A DNA stretch of 43,254 nucleotides, from positions 1-43,254 of the forward strand of contig JAQUKG010000003.1 of the NCBI GenBank assembly GCA_028719245.1. The letters run 5' to 3'. Source of the DNA: Candidatus Altimarinota bacterium. GTDB lineage: Bacteria; Patescibacteriota; Gracilibacteria; BD1-5; UBA6164. A program made the translations under genes and the position numbers. The notes beneath the pieces were generated by a model. That model had not been told where the DNA came from. It saw only the letters and a program-made list of their open reading frames with translations, and made no database searches. Every line of letters begins with the position of its first letter. The stretch's first letter is position 1. Positions 10,386 through 31,039 of this stretch are shown here, piece by piece.

Positions 10386-11780
10386 ATGATTACAACAGTT
10401 GCAGAAGAATATAGGCTTGAAGTTGTTTGAGCTTGAGATGAAGCTTCTTGAAATTTTAAGGGGGCTTGTGATAGTGCAAATGAACAACTAACTATAAGGA
10501 ATCTTTTAGAAAATACTTGAAGATGATGGAAAATAAAAACTTGACAAAATTGAGTTGAAAGAGTCGTTGAAAGTATTGATTGAGTTTGAACTAAAGTTCA
10601 AATTTATACAAATGTTTTTAATGAATTGGTAAAACAAAAAGAATCTTGAGAAATTTCAGATCAAGAATTATTTGATACATCCGTTGAGTTATGGGAAAGA
10701 ATGCTCCATGATTTAATTGCAATGAATGTTGATGATTTAAGAGATTGAGAAATGGCTATTGCAGTCACAAATATAATTGATATTAATCATTTAAAATGAA
10801 TTAGATGAAAAGTTTTTGCAGATTCTATGGCGAAAGCTATGTGAAATGTTATTACAGAACTTGATATTGCTATGACAGCTTGAGAAACAGCAATATTGTG
10901 AGAACCTAAAAAAGTAAGCCAATTATTATGACTAATTGATGATATATGAGCTAGTTTAACTCAAGTGTTGGATTTAGATATATCTGAAGTAGCAAAAAAT
11001 AAAATAAGAGCCATTTTAGATAAAGCATATTCAAAAACTTCAATAATTCATAGTGATTTAGAATTTAATATTTGATGAACTTGATTATGAGTGGTTTGAA
11101 CTGCAGAAAAATTAGTTGAATTAAAACCTTGACAAAGAATAATTGCTTTGCAAGAAAAACCAACTAAAGATTGAATTATTTGACCTAGATCAAATTGAAT
11201 TACAGCAATTAGAAAATATATGACAAGTTTAGCTTGAGAGTGATGGGAAAATTTAACTTTTGAGGAATTTTGCGATAAGATTTGAGTAGAAGAAGCTTAT
11301 AAAATTCCAGAAAGATTAACAGCTGAGCTTAGTTGACTAAAAATGTGGGATATTGCGACTGGTAAAACAACTGTTTTTAATCCTTTAGTTTCAAGGAGTT
11401 TACTTTGATGATTAGGTAATAACCCAATTGCAGATATATCATCTATTATACATGTTACTTGAAATCCTTGAAGAAAAATTAAAGATTGACTTAGGTGAAA
11501 CGATGATTTATGAATAAATATTGATTTAACTTGAGTAAAAATACCTCAAATAATAGAATTAATACAAATATTATGTAATGTTTCAGATGAAGATGCTATT
11601 TGATCTTGGAATATGTGAATTCCTTATGTTGTGATTTGTGAAAATGATTGAGCTGAAGAAATTATTAGAAAAGCTTTTGAAGAATGATATATAGCAAAAG
11701 ATATTTGAGAAATTATTTTATCTACTGGAGGCTCATATATTAGTAATTTTTGATTTTGATGAAGTTCTTTAAAAATTTAA
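10386..11780 (+). CDS. purM: Phosphoribosylformylglycinamidine cyclo-ligase (AIR synthetase), elongated
   Basis: Would close the imidazole ring, turning FGAM into AIR with ATP. Recognisable PurM landmarks are VVESIDGVGTKVQIY, MNVDDLRDGEMAIAVTN, TAGETAILGEP (the usual GGETAEMPG position), GPRSNGITAIRK and IHVTGNPGRKIKDGLR. At 464 residues it is more than 100 longer than the 345 of typical PurM, with extra sequence in the middle and C-terminal half, so it belongs to a divergent branch. The same fold occurs in ThiL, SelD and HypE, but the neighbours purL and purN settle the assignment. Last gene of the purine operon, with a terminator 13 bases later. purF, purD, purE, purK, purC, purB and purH are not in the window. 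Confidence 0.85.
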
Positions 11781-11888: not shown

Positions 11889-14800
11889 TGCAAAACCAAA
11901 TATTTGAAAGCGAATATGCTAAATTAAACGAAAATCAAAAAAAAGCTGTAGATACAATTTATGGTCCTGTTATGGTTGTAGCTTGACCTTGAACTTGAAA
12001 AACTCAAATAATTTGACTTAGAACTGCTAATATTATTTTGCAAACTTGAGTAAATCCAGGAAATATTTTAATTACAACTTTTACCGATGCTTGAGTAATT
12101 GCAATCAAAAAAAGACTTGAAAAATTTTTATGAAGCGAATGATATAAAGTCGTAGTTTGCACAATTCATTCTTTTTGTCAGGATGTAATAAAAAATTTTC
12201 CTGAAAAGTTTTTGCAATTTAAAGCCTGAAATGCAATTGATGAAATAGATAGTTTAGAGCTTTTAAAAAATATTTTAGATAAAGAAATATCAAATAGAAA
12301 TATTGAAACTTTGACAAATGAACACGATAGATTTTTATATTTAAGAGATATAAAAAGTCGTATTTCTACATTAAAACAAGAAGCTGTAAGTTATGAAGAA
12401 TTTGAAGAAATTATTTTGCATCAAGAAAAAATATATTTAGATGAATTATCTGAAATTAAACCAACTTTAAAAAAATATGAAACGACAAAAGAAAACGGGC
12501 AAAAACACATAAAAAAATTACAAGAACTAAATTATATTTATAAATTATACAACGAAACCTTAAAAAATCTTTCTAAATATGATTTTAATGATATGATTAA
12601 TTTTGTTTTAGAAGTACTAAAAAATGATGAAGATTTGAGATATTTTTATGCTGAAAAATTTCAATTTATTATGCTTGATGAATTTCAAGATACAAACAAT
12701 GCTCAAAACAAAATTATTAATTTGATCTTGAGTGTTTGAAATGAAAAACCAAATATTTTAGTAGTTTGAGATGATGATCAATCAATTTACCGTTTTTCTT
12801 GAGCAAATATTGAAAATATGTTGGAATTTTCTAGTAAATTTCTAGAAACTCAAATAGTTGTTTTAGAAAATAATTATCGTTCAAGTCAGCCAATTTTGGA
12901 TCTTTGTAGTAATTTAATTAATAATAATAACGAAAGATTATCAACAAGAATTAAATGACTAGAAAAAAAATTAATTTCATCAAATCCAGATTATAAAAAT
13001 ATTAATTCAAAGCCAATTTTAATAACTCCAAGCTCACCAGAAGAACAAAAAGCTTTTTTATTATCTCAAATAAAAGACAAAATTAATTCTTGAAGAAATC
13101 CTGAAGAAATAGCTATTATTGTTAGAAATAATTCAGAAGTTGAAGAATTTAGTTTATTTTTTAAACAAAATCAAATTGAAGTTGTTTCAAAACTTAATAG
13201 TGATATTTTAAAAAATGATTATGTTAATTTTATTTTGAAATATTTAGAAGTTTTAAGTGATAATTTTTCATATAGTGATAATTTGATTGATATAACTAGA
13301 AGTAGCATAATTTGATTAAATCAAGTTGATATTTTTAAGATAAATAAAGATCTGTTCAATTATAATTATACTAAAAAATTTAAACTTAGTTTTTTAGATT
13401 ATTTACTTGATATTGAAAAAAAAGAAATTGAATTAGAAGATAAAAATAGTTTAATAGAATTTAAAAATAATTTTTTAGATTTTAATAAAAAGATTATTGA
13501 ACTAAATTTTTTAGAGTTTTTCTCATATTTTATAGAAAATATTTGAATAATTCCTTTTATAGAAAAATATTGAAGCTTTGATGATATTGAAGATATTTTT
13601 ACACTTTTTAATAAAATTAAATGATTTTTTGAAAATGATAAAGATTTTAATATTTCAAAATTTTTACAAAAAATCAATTTACATAAAGAATACAATTATT
13701 CAATTCCAAGACAAATTTTAAGAAAACCAAAAACTTGAATAAATATCCTAACATCGCACGGAAGCAAATGACTTGAATATGAAACCGTTTTTATACCAAA
13801 TTTATTTACATGAAATTGGGATAATAAAAGAGTTATTGATAAATTGAAATTACCAAATTCTATAGCTTGAAAATGATTGCAAGATGAAGTTGATAGTATT
13901 GAAGAAGAAAGAAGATTATTTTTTGTGGCTTGTAGTAGAGCAAAAAAAGAACTTTATTTAAGTTTCCCATTGTGAGTTGATAATAAACCAAAACTTGCAA
14001 GTGTTTTTATTTGAGAAATAAATTGATATTATGAAGAAATAAATATAAAAAATATTAATTTAGAGAATAATTTTCAAATTTCAATTAAAAATCAATTAAC
14101 AAATAACTTAATTAAATATTCTTCTTTAGAATTTGATTATATTAATGGATTTTTAGAAAATTATAAATTATCTCCGACTGATTTAAATTTGTTTTTAGAA
14201 GATCCTTTAAAATTCTTACAAAATGTAGTTTTTAAATATCCTTTTGTAGATAATGATGCGACAATCTTTTGAAAAGTTTATCATAGAGTTTTGGAATTAT
14301 TTTATTTAAAATATAAAGAAAAATGAGTTTTAGAAGAAGTTTCTTATTTAACTAATACATTTAAACTACTTTTAGAAAAAGAAATTTTATCAAGCGAAAG
14401 TTTTGAAAATTTGCTTAAAAAATGAATTATTTGATTAGAATGATTTTATGAAACATATAAAAATAATATTAGAGAAGTTTTGTTTTTAGAATACAATTTC
14501 AGACCAAAATGACTTGTTTTTAATGATGTTCCAATTACCTGAAAAATAGATAAAATAGAGAAACTTTGATTAACTAATTTTTCAAATGAAAATTCTTTAT
14601 GACAATTAGCATTTTTTAAAGATACTATTGCTATAATTGATTATAAAACTTGAAAACCAAAAAGTTTGTGAGAAATAAAATGAATTGATAAAACTTGAAA
14701 TAAAAAACCTTGAGAATGAAAATATTTTAGACAATTAATGTTTTATAAATTGTTATGTGAACTTGATAACGAATTTAATTGAAAATATGAAATCTGAGCT

Positions 14801-24087: not shown

Positions 24088-25209
24088 ATGATGCCATCAG
24101 AAACTCTAGCTTGAACTCCAGAATCTTTAGCTTGAACTCCAGAATCTTTAGCTTGAACTCCAGGGTCTTTACATTTAGAATATGCTAGAAGATTTACGGA
24201 TGTTTTAAAATGATTAGAAGAATATAGCAATCTGAAATGAAGGGAAATTAAAATACTGAAAATAACAGAGGTTTTATCTTTAAAAAAAGTGTTAAAAGAC
24301 TGAAATATTATATGTGAAGTAAAAGATGAAAATTGGAATACTTGCTTTGTAGATCCTAGCACAATGAATAAAGTTGATATTACTCCAAATGAAATTGAAA
24401 CTGTAGATGATTATGAAAGAATAGGAGAATATAATAATTTGGTTTGAAAATATGTTTTATCAAAAATAGTAAGTATAGTATCAGTTAGAAAAACAAATTG
24501 AAAAACGGTTATTTGAGTTGATATTAAGTGAAGAAAAACAATTCTTATTGAATTAGATTCATTAGAACCATTATTGTTATGATGAAAACCTGTTTATGAA
24601 GTATGAAATGAGGAGAAAAAATTATGAAGTAGAAATTATATTGAAGTTAAATGAAATATTATTTGAAGTGATTTTAATAATGCAATTTTAGATACTGAAA
24701 CTTTAAAACCTTTTAGAGTTGGTAGAAATGGTGATATAATTACAAAAGTTCATTCTGAATATACAGTTTTATGAAGAAAATTTATAAAAGTTAGTATAAA
24801 TAATGAATTTAGACCAAATACTTATACTGAGAAAGATATTATATTGGATGCAAAAACTTTAGAACCAATTATGCATTGAGAGGAGTATGTTTTAAAAATT
24901 GAAGGACATCATTTAAATTGAAAACAAGTTTTAAAATATTGATTATCAAGACAAAGGTATATTTTAGTAAAACCAGAATATTTAGAAAAATTAGATTTAC
25001 ATATTGAATGATATTCTGAACCAATTGAATATTTTGAAGATTGTCCTTGAAAGACATATTGTAAAGCAGTAATATGAAATAGTCATATTACTGTTGATAA
25101 AAATACTTTAGGAAAAACAAAACCTAGTGATAATACCAAAGAGAATTTTCAGAACCCTAAAAAAAGTGGATGGTTTTTTGGAGTATTTAAAAAATTACTT
25201 TGAAGGTAA
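24088..25209 (+). CDS. Hypothetical protein with N-terminal AGTPESL repeats
   Basis: I do not recognise this 373-residue protein. After MMPSET the N-terminus holds three copies of a seven-residue unit, (L)AGTPES, encoded by an exact 21-bp tandem repeat. The rest looks beta-rich, with repeated patterns such as DIxxxxKTxIELDSLEPL, YIEVKGNIIGSD and FIKVSINNEF followed by TLEP or TLKP. These suggest several copies of a small beta unit of about 60-70 residues (near residues 105-175, 190-255 and 265-340), each ending D/K-T/S-LEP. The C-terminus is basic with a short hydrophobic stretch (WFFGVFKKLLGR). There is no signal peptide. It has its own promoter; thrC follows but has a separate promoter. Confidence 0.7.
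24107..24169 (+). repeat. Three tandem 21-bp units inside the orphan gene
   Basis: The unit TAGCTTGAACTCCAGAATCTT occurs at 24107, 24128 and 24149. The first two are identical and the third differs at two bases (AA to GG). Each encodes the frame of L-A-G-T-P-E-S, so copy number can change without breaking the protein. Confidence 0.9.
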
Positions 25210-25230: not shown

Positions 25231-25257
25231 TTGACAAATCAAAAAAATCTATACAAT
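25231..25257 (+). promoter_or_regulatory. Predicted promoter of the thr leader and thrC
   Basis: Consensus TTGACA, 15 bases, TACAAT. Transcription should start near 25264, giving a leader RNA of about 160 bases before thrC. Confidence 0.65.
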
Positions 25258-25287
25258 AAATATTGTTAAATAATTAACCAAAGACAT

Positions 25288-25338
25288 ATGAGCTTAGCAC
25301 AACTTGAAACCATTATTATAACAGCTTCTAAAATTTAG
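25288..25338 (+). CDS. Putative Thr/Ile leader peptide of a thrC attenuator
   Basis: A 16-codon reading frame, MSLAQLETIIITASKI, ending in TAG. Codons 8-12 are ACC ATT ATT ATA ACA (Thr-Ile-Ile-Ile-Thr), the kind of run that stalls a ribosome when charged tRNA-Thr or tRNA-Ile is short, as in the E. coli thr leader peptide. It lies between a good promoter and a terminator hairpin directly upstream of threonine synthase. Its stop codon falls inside one arm of the competing RNA structure, as the classical mechanism needs. No Shine-Dalgarno is present, but none is seen for any gene here. Confidence 0.62.
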   Translation: MSLAQLETIIITASKI

Positions 25339-25404
25339 AGGATTTTTGTAAAGTGCTAAAATAAAACTTAAACAAGAACTTCTAAATAAATTTAGGAGTT
25401 TTTT
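25294..25404 (+). promoter_or_regulatory. Transcription attenuator upstream of thrC
   Basis: Four segments can pair in exclusive ways. Segment 1 is CTTCTAAA (25325-25332), segment 2 TTTAGAGG (25334-25341), segment 3 AACTTCTAAA (25377-25386), segment 4 TTTAGGAGTT (25391-25400). 3:4 is the terminator. 2:3 (8 bp) is an antiterminator. 1 can also pair with 2 or 4. A ribosome held at the Thr/Ile codons (25309-25323) would mask segment 1 and free 2 to pair with 3, letting transcription through. A ribosome reaching the stop at 25336-25338 would mask 2, so 3:4 forms. An outer pair TTAGCAC (25294-25300) with GTGCTAA (25353-25359) could close the structure when the leader is not translated. Confidence 0.6.
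25377..25404 (+). terminator. Attenuator terminator hairpin before thrC
   Basis: A 10-bp stem AACTTCTAAA / TTTAGGAGTT (one T-G wobble), 4-base loop, followed by TTTT and a further T run. It ends about 20 bases before the thrC ATG, with no gene end nearby that would otherwise need it except the leader peptide. Confidence 0.78.
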
Positions 25405-25423
25405 ATTTTTTAACTTTCTATTT

Positions 25424-26887
25424 ATGACAACACTTTTTGACACAAGAAGCAAGCAAACAACAACTTTGCAAAATGCTATAAAATCAAGCCAACCACTTTC
25501 AGGATGACTTTGGGCTATAAAAGATTTACCAAAAATTACTTTGGAGGAAATTGAAAAACTAGTATGAGAAAGTTATCAAGAGGTTGCTTTTCAAATTTTA
25601 TCAAAATTTGATTTTTGATTATCAAGCGAAGATTTAAAAGAAATTATAAATAATGCATATTGAAATCAATGGCATAACAAAGATATCACTCCAGTAAAAC
25701 AAATGTGAGATACAAATTTATTTTCTCTTCATTTATGATATTGACCAACATTTGCTTTTAAAAATGTAGCTTTAGAATTTCTACCAAGACTTTTATCTAA
25801 GTTGTCTCCTGGAGAAATAATAAATGTAGTTTGAGCTTCAAGTTGAGACACGATAAATGCAGCTCATTCTTGAGTAAAGTGAACAAATATTAGATCAATA
25901 TTTATGCTTACAAATTATGGACCATCTTATGTTCAAAAATTACAAGCAGTAAATGGAATTTCTAATAATCCAAATGCTTTTACATTGCTGGCTGATACTC
26001 CTTTTGATCCTCTTCAAGACATAGTAAAAAAACTAAATTCTAAAGAATTTGCAGACTTTAAATCTAAACATAAAATTACTTCTTTTAATTCTATAAATAT
26101 TGCAAGAATTTTAGCTCAAATAGTTTATTATTTTAGAGCTTACAGCGAACTTTTAAAATCTTGAAATATTCAGATTTGAGAAAAAGTAGTATTTAGTGTT
26201 CCTTCAGGAAATTTTTGAGATGCACTTGCAGGTTATTATGCAAAAAAGATGTGATTACCAATAGAAAAAATAGTTGTTGCTACAAATGAAAATGATATGC
26301 TAAAAGTATTTTTTGACTCTTGAGTTTATGCTCCACCAAAAAAAGACGGAAAAGATTTTGTTAAAATCACAAATGCTCCATCTATGGATATAGCAAAATC
26401 AAGTAATTTTGAAAGAGTACTTTTTGATATATACAATTTTGATGATGAAAAAATAAAATCTTTATATGATGAATTAGCTAGAACTTGAGAATTTAGAGTT
26501 GAAAATGAAATATTAAATAAAATCAGAGAAATATTTATTTCAGCTTCTTGCACAAATGAAGAAAGGGTTGAAGTTATAAAATACTTCTGAGAAACATTTA
26601 ATCACGGAATTGATCCACACGGAGCTACTGCAGTTATTCCTTTTACTAGATGAGATTTTGATTTTGGTTCTAAAAAAATAGTATTTTTAGAAACTTCTCA
26701 TATAGCACAATTTAAAAAGGAGTTGCAAGAAAAATGAGTTAATATTTCAGGAATGAATGAATTTGATAAGGAAATAGAAAAAATGGAGCAAAATAAATGA
26801 GTTGAATGAAAAAATTATATAATGATTACCTGAGAGTTTGATGAAGCTTTTGAAACAATAAAAAAAGCAATTGAAATGATGAAGTAA
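25424..26887 (+). CDS. thrC: Threonine synthase
   Basis: A PLP enzyme that turns O-phosphohomoserine into threonine. The 487 residues match the longer threonine synthase class (E. coli 428, yeast about 510). Landmarks are LGYGPTFAFKNVAL with the PLP lysine K113, VVGASSGDTINAAHSGVKGT, SVPSGNFGDALAGYYAKKMGLP binding the phosphate, and DPHGATAVIP near the C-terminus. Glycines in these loops are partly TGA. The upstream attenuator suggests control by Thr and Ile supply. No homoserine kinase or dehydrogenase is adjacent, so the pathway must be completed elsewhere or by uptake. The ATG at 25424 gives the usual N-terminal YxxTR-like start (FDTRSK). Confidence 0.93.
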
Positions 26888-26980: not shown

Positions 26981-27418
26981 ATGTCTAGAAAACCAGAATT
27001 TTATGCAGCAGTCTTTTGAATAATAAAAGATGAAAACTGAAATATATTATTTCAAAAAAGACAAAATACTTGATTTGCTGATTGATTTTATCAATTACCA
27101 AGTTGACACATTGAGTGAGAAGAAACTTATAATGAGGCTTTAATTAGAGAAATGAAAGAAGAACTTTGAATTGATATATTAGAAAAAAATATAAAATTAG
27201 TTCATATTTCTCATAGAATTACTAAAAATGATAGAGTATATTTTGATATTTTCTTTGAAATAACCTTATATAACTGAGAAATAACCAATACTGAGCCGGA
27301 AAAATGTAGTGAACTAAAATTTTTAGATTATAAAAATGAGAATTTAGTTATTAATTATAATAAACTTGCTTTGGAAAATATTGAAAAGTGAACTGCTTTT
27401 TCTGAAGTTATATATTAA
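26981..27418 (+). CDS. Nudix hydrolase (MutT-like)
   Basis: A 145-residue Nudix protein. The Nudix box runs from GHIEGEETYNEALIRE into MKEELGI, fitting Gx5Ex7REUxEExGU. The box Glu residues would bind Mg and cleave a nucleoside diphosphate linked to another group. It is preceded by FQKRQNTGFADGFYQLPSG, a common Nudix start seen in 8-oxo-dGTP and related hydrolases. The substrate cannot be named from sequence. It follows thrC by 93 bases on the same strand. The next gene is a small kinase after a gap with a palindromic element. Confidence 0.9.
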
Positions 27419-27526: not shown

Positions 27527-28117
27527 ATGAAAACAAATATAATTCTTATTTGAATGCCTTGAAGTTGAAAAACAACAATTGCAAAATATTTATCTTGGGC
27601 TTTAGAAATGCCAATAATAGACATTGATGATTTAATTGAAGAATCAATGCAAAGATCAGCTTGAGATACTTTAACAAAATATTGAGAAGAAAAATTTCTT
27701 GATTTTGAAAAAGAAATTTCTTTAAAATTAAAACCAAAACATTCAATAATTTCTTGTACTTGAAGTATTCCTTTGAGAAAAGAAGCTATGGATTATCTAA
27801 GAACTATTTGATATGCAATTTTGATAAATATTCCACTAGATAAAATAAAAAATAGGCTTGAAATTATGAAAGTTGATAGAATTGTTGGTATGTCAAATTG
27901 AAGAATGACTTTAGACGAAGTATTAAACTATAGAGATGGAATTTATAAACAAAGTTATGATTTTATTTTTAATGATGATTGAGTTTGAAATAAAAAAGAA
28001 ATGTTTAAAAAGTTTCTAGATTTCTTATTAAAATTACCAATTGCAAATGAACTTTGATTAAAGGTAAACGAAGATAATTTAAAAGTCGTTTATGATGAAT
28101 ATAAATGATTTGAGTAA
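27527..28117 (+). CDS. Shikimate kinase-like P-loop kinase
   Basis: A 196-residue small-molecule kinase. Walker A is IGMPGSGKTTIAKYL, followed by PIIDIDDLIEE, the shikimate-kinase-type Asp pair that contacts the substrate. The later YGEEKFLDFEKE resembles the GE..FR..E motif, and Arg-containing segments near residue 125 and LNYRDGIYKQSYD resemble the R.PLY region. The GGG motif of true AroK is replaced by CTGSI, so the exact substrate is uncertain; related kinases such as gluconate kinase share the fold. If it is AroK, it would make shikimate-3-phosphate for aromatic amino acids, but no other aro gene is present. A TATAAT at 27515-27520 lies just upstream without a clear -35. Confidence 0.62.
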
Positions 28118-28138: not shown

Positions 28139-29230
28139 ATGTTTCTAGAATCACAAACAAGTTCTACAAGTCATAAAACAAGATTATTCTTAGGAACTTT
28201 TCCTGTTTTAAATCCAGATATTTTAAATCCGACAATTTTAAATCCAGAACAATTTAATATATGAGAAGTCTCTAATGAATTTGTTTTAAAAGTTTTTTGA
28301 ATTATAACTCAAGAACAATTTAATTTATTACAAAGATATGTTTCTTGAGAATTAAATGGAAATCATAAATTAAAAAGAGAAGCTCAAAAAATAGGTATAA
28401 GATTATTAAGAATATTACAAGAACATAAAGGTAACAAAATAAATATAAATTTTGATCAAAGTAATCTTTTTAGAAGCAGACCTGGGGTTGCATTAGAATA
28501 TTTTATAATTGAATTAGTTTCAAGATTACATAAAAGTAATTGAGTAAAAATAGAAAAATGACCTGAAGAATTAGAACCAAATAAAATGGATTTTGTTATA
28601 ACAAAAGAAGGTATAAAATATTGAATACAACTAACTACAGTTGAAAGTATCCATATACGAGAGAAAAATAGGGATATAAAAAAACTTCGTTGATATTGTA
28701 ATTCTTGAGTAATGGTAAGATATTTAAAATGAAAAATATCTACTCATTTTATTCCTGATGTCCCAATACTTATGGTGGTAAATTCTCATATAAGTAGATT
28801 AGCAAATAGAAACTGAGTATTATGATTAGCATATGCTAGATGGAAAAAAAATTGATATAAAAATACTCCTGATTATTATATTTCAAATAAACATGCTAGA
28901 GCAGAACTAAAAGAAATATGATTAAGTTTACCAAATGTAATTTGAGAATGAGTAAAATTTATAAAAGCTAGATATTGGGAACAAAAAATAGCAGAACAAA
29001 GAATGTGAAATTTAATATTTAGTTTTAATTGAAGAAATAATTTAAAAATATCTTATTACTCTCAGAGTCTTTCAAATACAGATAAACAAGAATTTATTTA
29101 TTCTATAGAAATATTTATAACAACTAAATTACTAAAAAAATTATGAATAAAACATATTTTAAGGGCAAATTGAACTCCAGAAAAAAAGAAAAGAACTTTT
29201 TATAAAATACCTAAAAAGAAAAGATATTAA
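28139..29230 (+). CDS. Hypothetical protein with possible nuclease-like core
   Basis: A 363-residue protein I cannot assign. The N-terminus contains three ILNP units (PDILNPTILNPEQF). The middle (about residues 115-175) reads ALEYFIIELVSRLH, EPNKMDFVITKEG and KYGIQLTT. Its E, D and Q-x-T spacing recalls the PD-(D/E)XK nuclease pattern but lacks the usual Lys, so this is only a suggestion. The C-terminal half is basic, with repeated Lys/Arg-rich stretches ending KIPKKKRY, consistent with nucleic acid or ribosome contact. No signal peptide or membrane segment is seen. It lies 21 bases after the kinase gene and 36 before thrS, so probably belongs to the same transcript. Confidence 0.65.
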
Positions 29231-29266: not shown

Positions 29267-31039
29267 ATGATAACTACTGCAAGACATTCGCTAAGCCATA
29301 TCTTAGCACAAGCTGTAAAAGCTTTATATGGAAATGATGGTAAAATGGCAATCGGACCAGATATTGAAAATGGATTTTATTATGACTTTGATTTTTGAAA
29401 TATAGAGTTCAAAGAAGAAGATTTAAAAACTCTTGAGAAGAAAATGAAACAAATCATTAAACAAAACCAGAAATTTGAACAATATGATTTAGATTTTCTA
29501 GAGGCAAGAGATTATTTATCATCTCAAGGTGAAGAATACAAAGTTGAAATGTGTGAAGAATTATTTGCAAAATGAAATGCTAAAATTAGCTTTTATAAAA
29601 ATATAATGCAAAACTGAGAAACTTCATTTATTGATATGTGTTCTGGTCCTCATGTAGATAATACAAACAAAATTGACGAAAATGCCTTTTGTTTAGAAAA
29701 AATTGCTTGAGCTTATTGGAAAGGTGATGCTAGCAAGAAAATGCTTACTCGTATTTACGGATTAGCTTTTGAAACTCGTGAAGAATTGGATAATCATATA
29801 AAAATGCTTGAAGAAGCAAAAAAAAGAGATCATAGAATTTTATGAAAAAAATTAAAACTTTTTACTATTTCAGAAATGGTTTGAGCTTGACTTCCTTTGA
29901 TACAACCAGCTTGAATGATTATTAGAAAAGAAATAGAAGATTATTTATGGAATTTACATAAAAAACACGGGTATCAAAGAATTTGGTCTCCACATCTAGC
30001 AAGAGAAGATTTATATATTACTTCTGGTCATGCAGGACATTATTTAGAAGATATGTTTAGTGTTTTTGGATGAACTAGTAAAGAGAAATTTCATCTAAAA
30101 CCTATGAATTGTCCTCATCATATGCAAATATTTGCTGATAATCAATTTAGTTATCGTGATATGCCTGTTAGATATTTTGAACCAGCAACTGTTTATAGAG
30201 ATGAAAAAACTGGACAACTTTCTTGACTTACAAGAGTTAGAAGTATTACTCAAGATGATTGACATTTATTTTGTAGAGTTAGCCAAATAAAACAAGAAGT
30301 AAAAATTATAACTGACATCATAAAAGAGTTTTATTCAACAATGTGATTACTTGATAATTATTGGGTTTCGCTTTCTGTTAGAGATGAAGAAGATAAAAGC
30401 AAATATTTAGGATCTGACGAAGTTTGGGAAAAGGCAGAAAATGCTTTAGAAGAGGCAGCAAAACTAAATGATTTGCCTTACAAAAGAATGCCTGGAGAAG
30501 CAGCATTTTACTGACCAAAACTTGATTTTATGTTTAAAGATTGTATAGGAAGAGAATGGCAACTTGCTACTATTCAGTGTGATTTTAACTTACCAGAAAG
30601 ATTTAAATTAAATTTCACAAATGAGCAGTGAAATGATGAAAGACCAGTTGTAATTCATAGAGCAATTTCAGGAAGTTTAGAGAGATTTATGTGAATAATT
30701 ATAGAGCATTTTGCCGGAGCTTTTCCACTTTGGTTGTCTCCAAGACAAGTTGCAATTATTCCAGTTGCTGAAAAATTTGAAGATTATGGGAAGAATTTAG
30801 ATGAAAAATTAAAAGATTTAGATATTAGAAGTAAAGTTGATTTTTCAAGCGATAGTTTTTCTAAAAAGATAAGAAATGCTGAAATGGATAAATATAATTA
30901 TGTTGCAATAGTTTGAGAACAAGAAATGCAAAATAAAACAGTTTCAGTTAGAAATGTTAGAACTAAAGAACAATTCACTTTGAGTTTAGATGAATTTATT
31001 AGTAAGTTGAGTGAAGAAATTAGGAGTAAGAGTTTATAA
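29267..31039 (+). CDS. thrS: Threonyl-tRNA synthetase, lacking the TGS domain
   Basis: Charges tRNA-Thr. The 590 residues start at [17 protein letters not shown], which is the beginning of the editing domain. The N-terminal TGS (N1) domain of about 60 residues found in E. coli ThrRS (642 residues) is absent. Class II motifs follow: the zinc and catalytic segment [13 protein letters not shown] with its Cys and His ligands, motif 2 [20 protein letters not shown], and motif 3 [20 protein letters not shown]. The anticodon-binding domain begins at [10 protein letters not shown]. Editing-site residues HxxxH and CSGPHV are present. The ATG at 29267 is the only plausible start: the 36-base gap upstream leaves no room for a TGS domain. 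No T-box leader is visible. Confidence 0.95.

Follow-up and report, generated by a model that had tools for sequence, protein, structure and literature searches.

The leader in front of the threonine synthase gene thrC in a Candidatus Altimarinota bacterium is very probably a ribosome-mediated transcription attenuator that senses the supply of charged tRNA-Thr and, in this genome, possibly that of charged tRNA-Ile too. As we read the comparative evidence, it is likely an example of a lineage-specific threonine attenuator that is unrelated in sequence to the known ones, is near-universal in one recoded family of Patescibacteria and has controlled the threonyl-tRNA synthetase gene thrS since the origin of that family, with thrC (here) or thrH (in three relatives) inserted under an already existing sensor. 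Because the leader is conserved and its arms covary, assignment of the leader family to this mechanism class is strongly supported; stalling, termination and read-through at the source locus are what we infer from the sequence.

The window, i.e. the whole stretch of 43,254 nucleotides that was analysed, belongs to a 1.35-Mb draft genome (90%-complete assembly) in which TGA is read as glycine (code 25) and whose closest named relatives are Candidatus Gracilibacteria. An uncharacterised gene ends at position 25209, thrC begins at 25424, and the leader element occupies the gap between them with the following features:

25231–25257, plus strand: promoter, with TTGACA at 25231–25236, a 15-nt spacer and TACAAT at 25252–25257 (read from the sequence and the homologous leaders)
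25288–25338, plus strand: leader peptide ORF of 16 codons, MSLAQLETIIITASKI-TAG (from the sequence; ORF intact in 49 homologues)
25294–25300, plus strand: arm 0, TTAGCAC, with the potential partner GTGCTAA (near-invariant nucleotides in 49 homologues)
25309–25323, plus strand: control codons ACC ATT ATT ATA ACA (Thr Ile Ile Ile Thr), codons 8–12 of the leader (from the sequence)
25325–25332, plus strand: arm 1, CTTCTAAA, pairing with arm 2 as a protector hairpin (sequence and covariation)
25334–25349, plus strand: arm 2, TTTAGAGG (25334–25341) with the extension ATTTTTGT, pairing with arm 1 or arm 3
25353–25359, plus strand: GTGCTAA, the potential partner of arm 0 (sequence and folding)
25371–25386, plus strand: arm 3, ACAAGAA plus CTTCTAAA (25379–25386), antiterminator with arm 2 and terminator with arm 4
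25391–25398, plus strand: arm 4, TTTAGGAG (from the sequence)
25374–25410, plus strand: intrinsic terminator, a 13-bp stem at 25374–25403 (arms 3 and 4) plus U-tract, −10.0 kcal/mol

The original prediction had described a promoter, a 16-residue leader with Thr-Ile-Ile-Ile-Thr, duplicated arms and a terminator, and all of these coordinates and sequences are borne out by direct reading of the DNA. The predicted start of transcription lies at ~25264. Of 49 homologous leaders, 47 carry TTGAC and a −10 hexamer at a fixed distance 5' of the leader start; a spacer of 14–16 nt is usual in the homologues. The leader ORF is free of TGA codons, so its reading does not depend on the code difference.

Two arm segments are identical copies of CTTCTAAA, one being arm 1 and the other lying within arm 3, and the leader stop codon (25336–25338) sits within arm 2, that is, inside the arm to be masked, as had been proposed. 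The antiterminator and terminator arms stand as first described; that set was incomplete: a 7-bp hairpin of arms 1 and 2, with a short U-run behind it, has to be added, and so does the rod of 1:4 and 2:3 into which the RNA folds when it is not translated at all and which likewise ends at the U-tract. In the proposed mechanism, transcription would begin near 25264 and a ribosome would enter the leader peptide ORF. If charged tRNA is scarce, this ribosome would stall at codons 10–12 (Ile-Ile-Thr) such that its leading edge masks arm 1 and arm 2 stays free; arm 2 would then capture arm 3 ahead of the synthesis of arm 4, so that no terminator could form, and polymerase would read through into thrC and then via three more genes to thrS. 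If charged tRNA is plentiful, the ribosome would reach the stop codon and mask arm 2, leaving arms 3 and 4 to form the terminator. An RNA that is not translated would adopt either 1:2 with 3:4 or the rod of 1:4 with 2:3, and termination would follow either way.

We modelled the ribosome as covering 15 nt ahead of the P-site codon. With this footprint at the source locus, arm 1 is wholly or partly hidden and arm 2 exposed while the ribosome waits at codons 10–12, whereas arrival at the stop codon hides arm 2; with arm 0 pairing excluded, arm 4 is freed only with the A site at codons 10–12. In the RNA as it stands shortly before arm 4 emerges, the best structure is 2:3 for every A-site codon up to 13, which fits what kinetic antitermination needs. 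At full-length equilibrium with arm 0 excluded, the antiterminator is modestly ahead at codons 11–12 only (arm 4 paired 0.30 and 0.61), and with the arm 0 helix allowed the terminator is ahead at these codons as well (0.79 and 0.93). Across the homologues, the equilibrium scan discriminates weakly and shows no codon window for most leaders; therefore, the model requires kinetic control. The arm 0 helix itself gives a weak pairing signal despite its conserved nucleotides; it may form and could, for instance, serve as the classical first arm, melted by the moving ribosome; we do not assert it.

Taken in isolation, the source locus makes a fair but not strong case against chance. Of 500 shuffles, 492 gave a weaker fold of the upstream half onto the terminator's 5' arm than the real sequence, and just 2 allowed all 13 bases (arm 3) to pair upstream. 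Shuffles yielded a comparably placed leader ORF with Thr/Ile codons in about 0.1% of cases or fewer; such an ORF had to end in the arms and carry three Thr/Ile codons, one of them a Thr at the critical place. The strength of the terminator is average for the source genome, where terminators are common. Among 16 terminators in a 5' position in about 444 kb of sampled source genome (the window, L041–L060 and L013), no other had a full antiterminator and a fitting leader, and no attenuator was seen at the head of the ilv operon. Separately, L058 holds three near-identical cassettes (11233–11320, 11900–11985 and 12477–12560), each a terminator hairpin with, immediately behind it, a promoter of the form TTGACATA-N-TATAAT.

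It is conservation of the leader that carries the argument. A search of the family with the leader DNA gave strong matches in genomes that have no thrC, first of all within the same genus (78% and 75% identity); the gene that follows the leader in these genomes is thrS. A covariance model (R1) built from 20 aligned homologous leaders finds one strong copy per genome in 45 of 48 genomes of the Candidatus Gracilibacteria family (code 25) and also matches several genomes of a sister family. The original prediction had proposed to look for the arms and the control codons in related genomes. Both are conserved: the arms covary, as detailed below, and every one of the 49 homologues has Thr directly after xQLx. 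The leader ORFs of these homologues share an xAQLxT-like start and a Thr-rich run (family consensus [M/V]x(L/F)AQL(V/E)T, then the Thr-rich run), and the family leader peptides are 12–25 aa long. Thr makes up 24% of residues across 50 leaders compared with 5.1% in the proteins of the source genome. We infer from this conserved coding pattern that the leader ORF is translated.

The start context of the leader is ordinary for a genome that lacks Shine-Dalgarno sequences: it beats 36% of real gene starts and is matched by 15% of non-start intergenic ATGs. No Shine-Dalgarno sequence precedes the leader start at the source locus, and GGAG at −18 to −4 was found in none of 355 ATG genes in the ~444 kb sampled; a search of the source assembly for a 16S rRNA gene found none. 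Gene starts in this genome have TTAA near −14 and, in 76%, T at −1. AAGG occurs shortly 5' of the start codon in 21 of the 49 homologous thrS leaders, in which respect the ordinary genes of the source genome differ. Ribosome loading on the leader and on genes may differ.

Conservation also bears on whether the ribosome is the sensor at all. The stretch AGCACAACTTGxAACC is near-invariant across the 49 homologous leaders, third codon positions included, which indicates a constraint at the RNA level, and a T-box-like RNA exists elsewhere in the source genome; both speak for the alternative in which something other than a translating ribosome (small molecule, protein or uncharged tRNA) binds the leader RNA directly and the ORF is incidental. 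We consider this very unlikely. The reading frame is kept in 49 leaders despite variable Thr codons and the use of two start codons (ATG or GTG), Thr is enriched in frame, and the leader has neither a T-box bulge nor a match in Rfam.

Pairing of the arms offers a further line of evidence for attenuation by a translating ribosome. In a model-based alignment of 49 sequences, which was fitted to helices 1:2 and 3:4 and hence favours their register, these two helices are paired in 91.9% of cells, with two-sided changes in 16 of 16 pairs and 147 two-sided cells compared with 43 in shuffles; none of 500 shuffles, which ignore relatedness, was as high on any measure. In slid registers, pairing of the same helices drops to 41–54%. 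Whatever the fitting of the alignment and the neglect of relatedness contribute, the two-sided changes are many and varied. Covariation is seen at all nine modelled pairs of the terminator (3:4). The antiterminator (2:3) lies outside R1; it is paired in 77.4% of cells with two-sided changes in seven of eight pairs, and its covariation score is 0.265, a level reached by none of 500 shuffles (0.193) and by no slid register (at most 0.18); this signal could partly derive from the ties of arm 2 to arm 1 and of arm 3 to arm 4. Beyond the repeats, the extension of 2:3 (a T-run with an A-run) is partly conserved and varies little. In a swap test that needs no register inside the arms, arm 2 paired with its own arm 3 at −11.8 kcal/mol compared with −8.0 kcal/mol for the arm 3 of others; the corresponding means for 1:2 and 1:4 were spoiled by empty segments and were discarded. 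Covariation of both 2:3 and 3:4 upholds the proposal that antiterminator and terminator are mutually exclusive.

These data leave almost no room for the explanation that the element consists of two tandem terminators of the upstream gene together with a chance ORF. The 1:2 hairpin does precede a short U-run, as a terminator would, and the abundance of terminators in the genome is in keeping with this explanation. However, the terminator sits 165 nt from the upstream stop codon compared with a median of 12, a conserved promoter stands between, and a single conserved copy with covariation in four arms is present in 45 of 48 genomes, almost always before thrS; the conserved frame and the conserved 2:3 pairing contradict it directly.

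The gene order around the leader suggests which gene it has served. In 42 of the 45 family genomes that have the leader, a gene for threonyl-tRNA synthetase, recognised in relatives by its N-terminal motif and in one case by NCBIfam, lies within ~1.4 kb 3' of it. The three exceptions are G024 and G445, in which the contig or stretch ends nearby, and the source genome, in which thrS is the fifth gene behind the leader. In G008 the order is leader-Nudix-thrS. In G033, G444 and G445, thrH (homoserine phosphotransferase; identified by NCBIfam in G033 and by sequence likeness in G444 and G445) is directly 3' of the leader, with thrS next in G033 and G444. Thus thrC or thrH has been inserted between leader and thrS in four genomes, and the best reading is that thrS was the original target of the element in the family. 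Three R1 matches in the sister family, those in G442 (L223), G044 (L232) and G443 (L236), have no thrS within 1.7 kb, which could mean other targets or lost neighbours.

Orthologues of thrC proved a misleading comparative set: judged by them alone the attenuator seemed refuted, and the picture changed with the search by leader DNA. A contig search with a single ThrC returned nothing, and a search with a ThrC alignment returned G033, G444 and distant bacteria. A close thrC (60–62% identity) was found in these two recoded genomes only; about 27 nt precede it there, with no leader, and the leader copy of both genomes precedes thrH-thrS.

At the source locus, five genes follow the leader:

25424–26887, plus strand: thrC, threonine synthase, read in code 25 (TIGR00260, Thr_synth_N)
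26981–27418, plus strand: Nudix hydrolase, with 48% identity to its counterpart in G008, the gene of which separates leader and thrS there
27527–28117, plus strand: shikimate-kinase-like P-loop kinase, best NCBIfam model homoserine kinase (NF040667), sub-threshold
28139–29230, plus strand: protein of 363 aa of unknown family, no Pfam or NCBIfam match
29267–31039, plus strand: thrS, threonyl-tRNA synthetase (TIGR00418)

No terminators were found between the genes of this cluster. The original prediction that the leader controls thrC alone is not sustained, given thrS in the same cluster here and behind the leader in most relatives. No relatives of the 363-aa protein were found in the seven family genomes searched. 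A different shikimate-kinase-like P-loop kinase is also found near thrC in genus g13 (L028 766–1419). Because the best sub-threshold model of both kinases is NF040667, they may supply O-phosphohomoserine; a homoserine dehydrogenase was not found in the source assembly.

With several genes between leader and thrS, a once-working thrS attenuator might be decaying in the source genome, and its leader has two Thr codons, the joint lowest number among the 20 leaders first aligned. We regard decay as unlikely: arms, promoter and frame are all intact, and the leader scores 104.8 bits against R1 (E 6.7e-15), in the upper half of the family range, being itself one of the 20 seed sequences.

A working attenuator might nonetheless have isoleucine as its main signal here, or respond to isoleucine and threonine alike, which we hold as a tentative alternative. 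Codons 9–11 are Ile, and the permissive A-site codons 10–12 are Ile, Ile and Thr. Because ilvA, ilvB, ilvD and ilvE are present in the source genome, together with a small-subunit-like protein, threonine may feed isoleucine synthesis there. On the other hand, the residue enriched family-wide is Thr and not Ile, which makes up 8% of the family leaders; Ile accounts for 10.9% of residues in the proteins of this AT-rich genome, and drift can turn ACN codons into ATN and so give rise to Ile codons. For a threonine synthase, a mixture of Thr and Ile codons would be sensible, as in the E. coli thr leader, but the residue that appears selected family-wide is Thr. Our preferred reading thus remains an attenuator that senses threonine, possibly along with isoleucine at this locus.

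The kind of attenuator is well known; the RNA family, its target thrS and the lineage appear new. Neither the window nor 20 homologous leaders gave a match to any Rfam family at its gathering score, and the near-misses at the source locus (trpB motif, E 0.52, and others) were not significant. Among the open-access papers searched, we found none on leader-peptide attenuation in Gracilibacteria or the candidate phyla radiation, and none that connects ThrRS with a leader peptide and attenuation, in agreement with the original prediction that such attenuators are hardly known from this lineage.

In the E. coli thr leader (thrL), Thr and Ile codons and a terminator precede the threonine biosynthesis genes and a stalled ribosome is the sensor. 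The leader described here is alike in its Thr/Ile codons in a short leader, its terminator and the proposed sensing by a stalled ribosome. It differs in having no detectable sequence relation and no match to the curated Rfam model, in its ancestral target (thrS and not thrABC), in the conserved xAQLxT N-terminus and leader length of about 145 nt, and in residing in a code-25 bacterium. A synthetase gene under leader-peptide attenuation is known from E. coli pheST. Leader-peptide attenuators of trpS and leuS have been predicted in Streptomyces (PMC1262725). Regulation of an aminoacyl-tRNA synthetase gene in this way, predicted here, is shared with these systems, whereas the threonine enzyme, the lineage and the unrelated sequence set the present leader apart. 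Like the T-box riboswitch (RF00230), the leader would choose between terminator and antiterminator according to tRNA charging, upstream of synthetase and amino-acid genes; unlike it, the leader has a conserved ORF, and neither a UGGN bulge nor a stem I specifier codon was found in 25264–25410. In E. coli, ThrRS represses translation of its own mRNA at the thrS translational operator. Both systems regulate thrS, here by a terminator and a Thr-rich leader ORF rather than translational autorepression.

Little is known about regulation in Patescibacteria, most of which have no amino-acid synthesis (PMC11665869). If our reading is true, coupled transcription and translation serves as an amino-acid sensor in reduced, recoded genomes, an uncultivated group has a measurable regulatory system, and biosynthetic genes landed behind a ready-made sensor. 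R1 and the leader alignment are directly usable for annotation.

The T-box-like leader RNA of the source genome, which is not called by Rfam, lies in L053 (G000:C14) at about 13800–13607 on the minus strand. It has a hairpin GTGG-CTATCAA-CCAC with ATC (Ile) in the loop and continues as GCTTTAGG-TGGTACC-hairpin-CCAAAAGC, overlapping a terminator. It precedes MazG-like, unknown, ilvA and ridA genes and, in G002 (L145), ileS; similar DNA is found with E below 1e-8 in more than 20 relatives (including L143–L145 and L147–L149).
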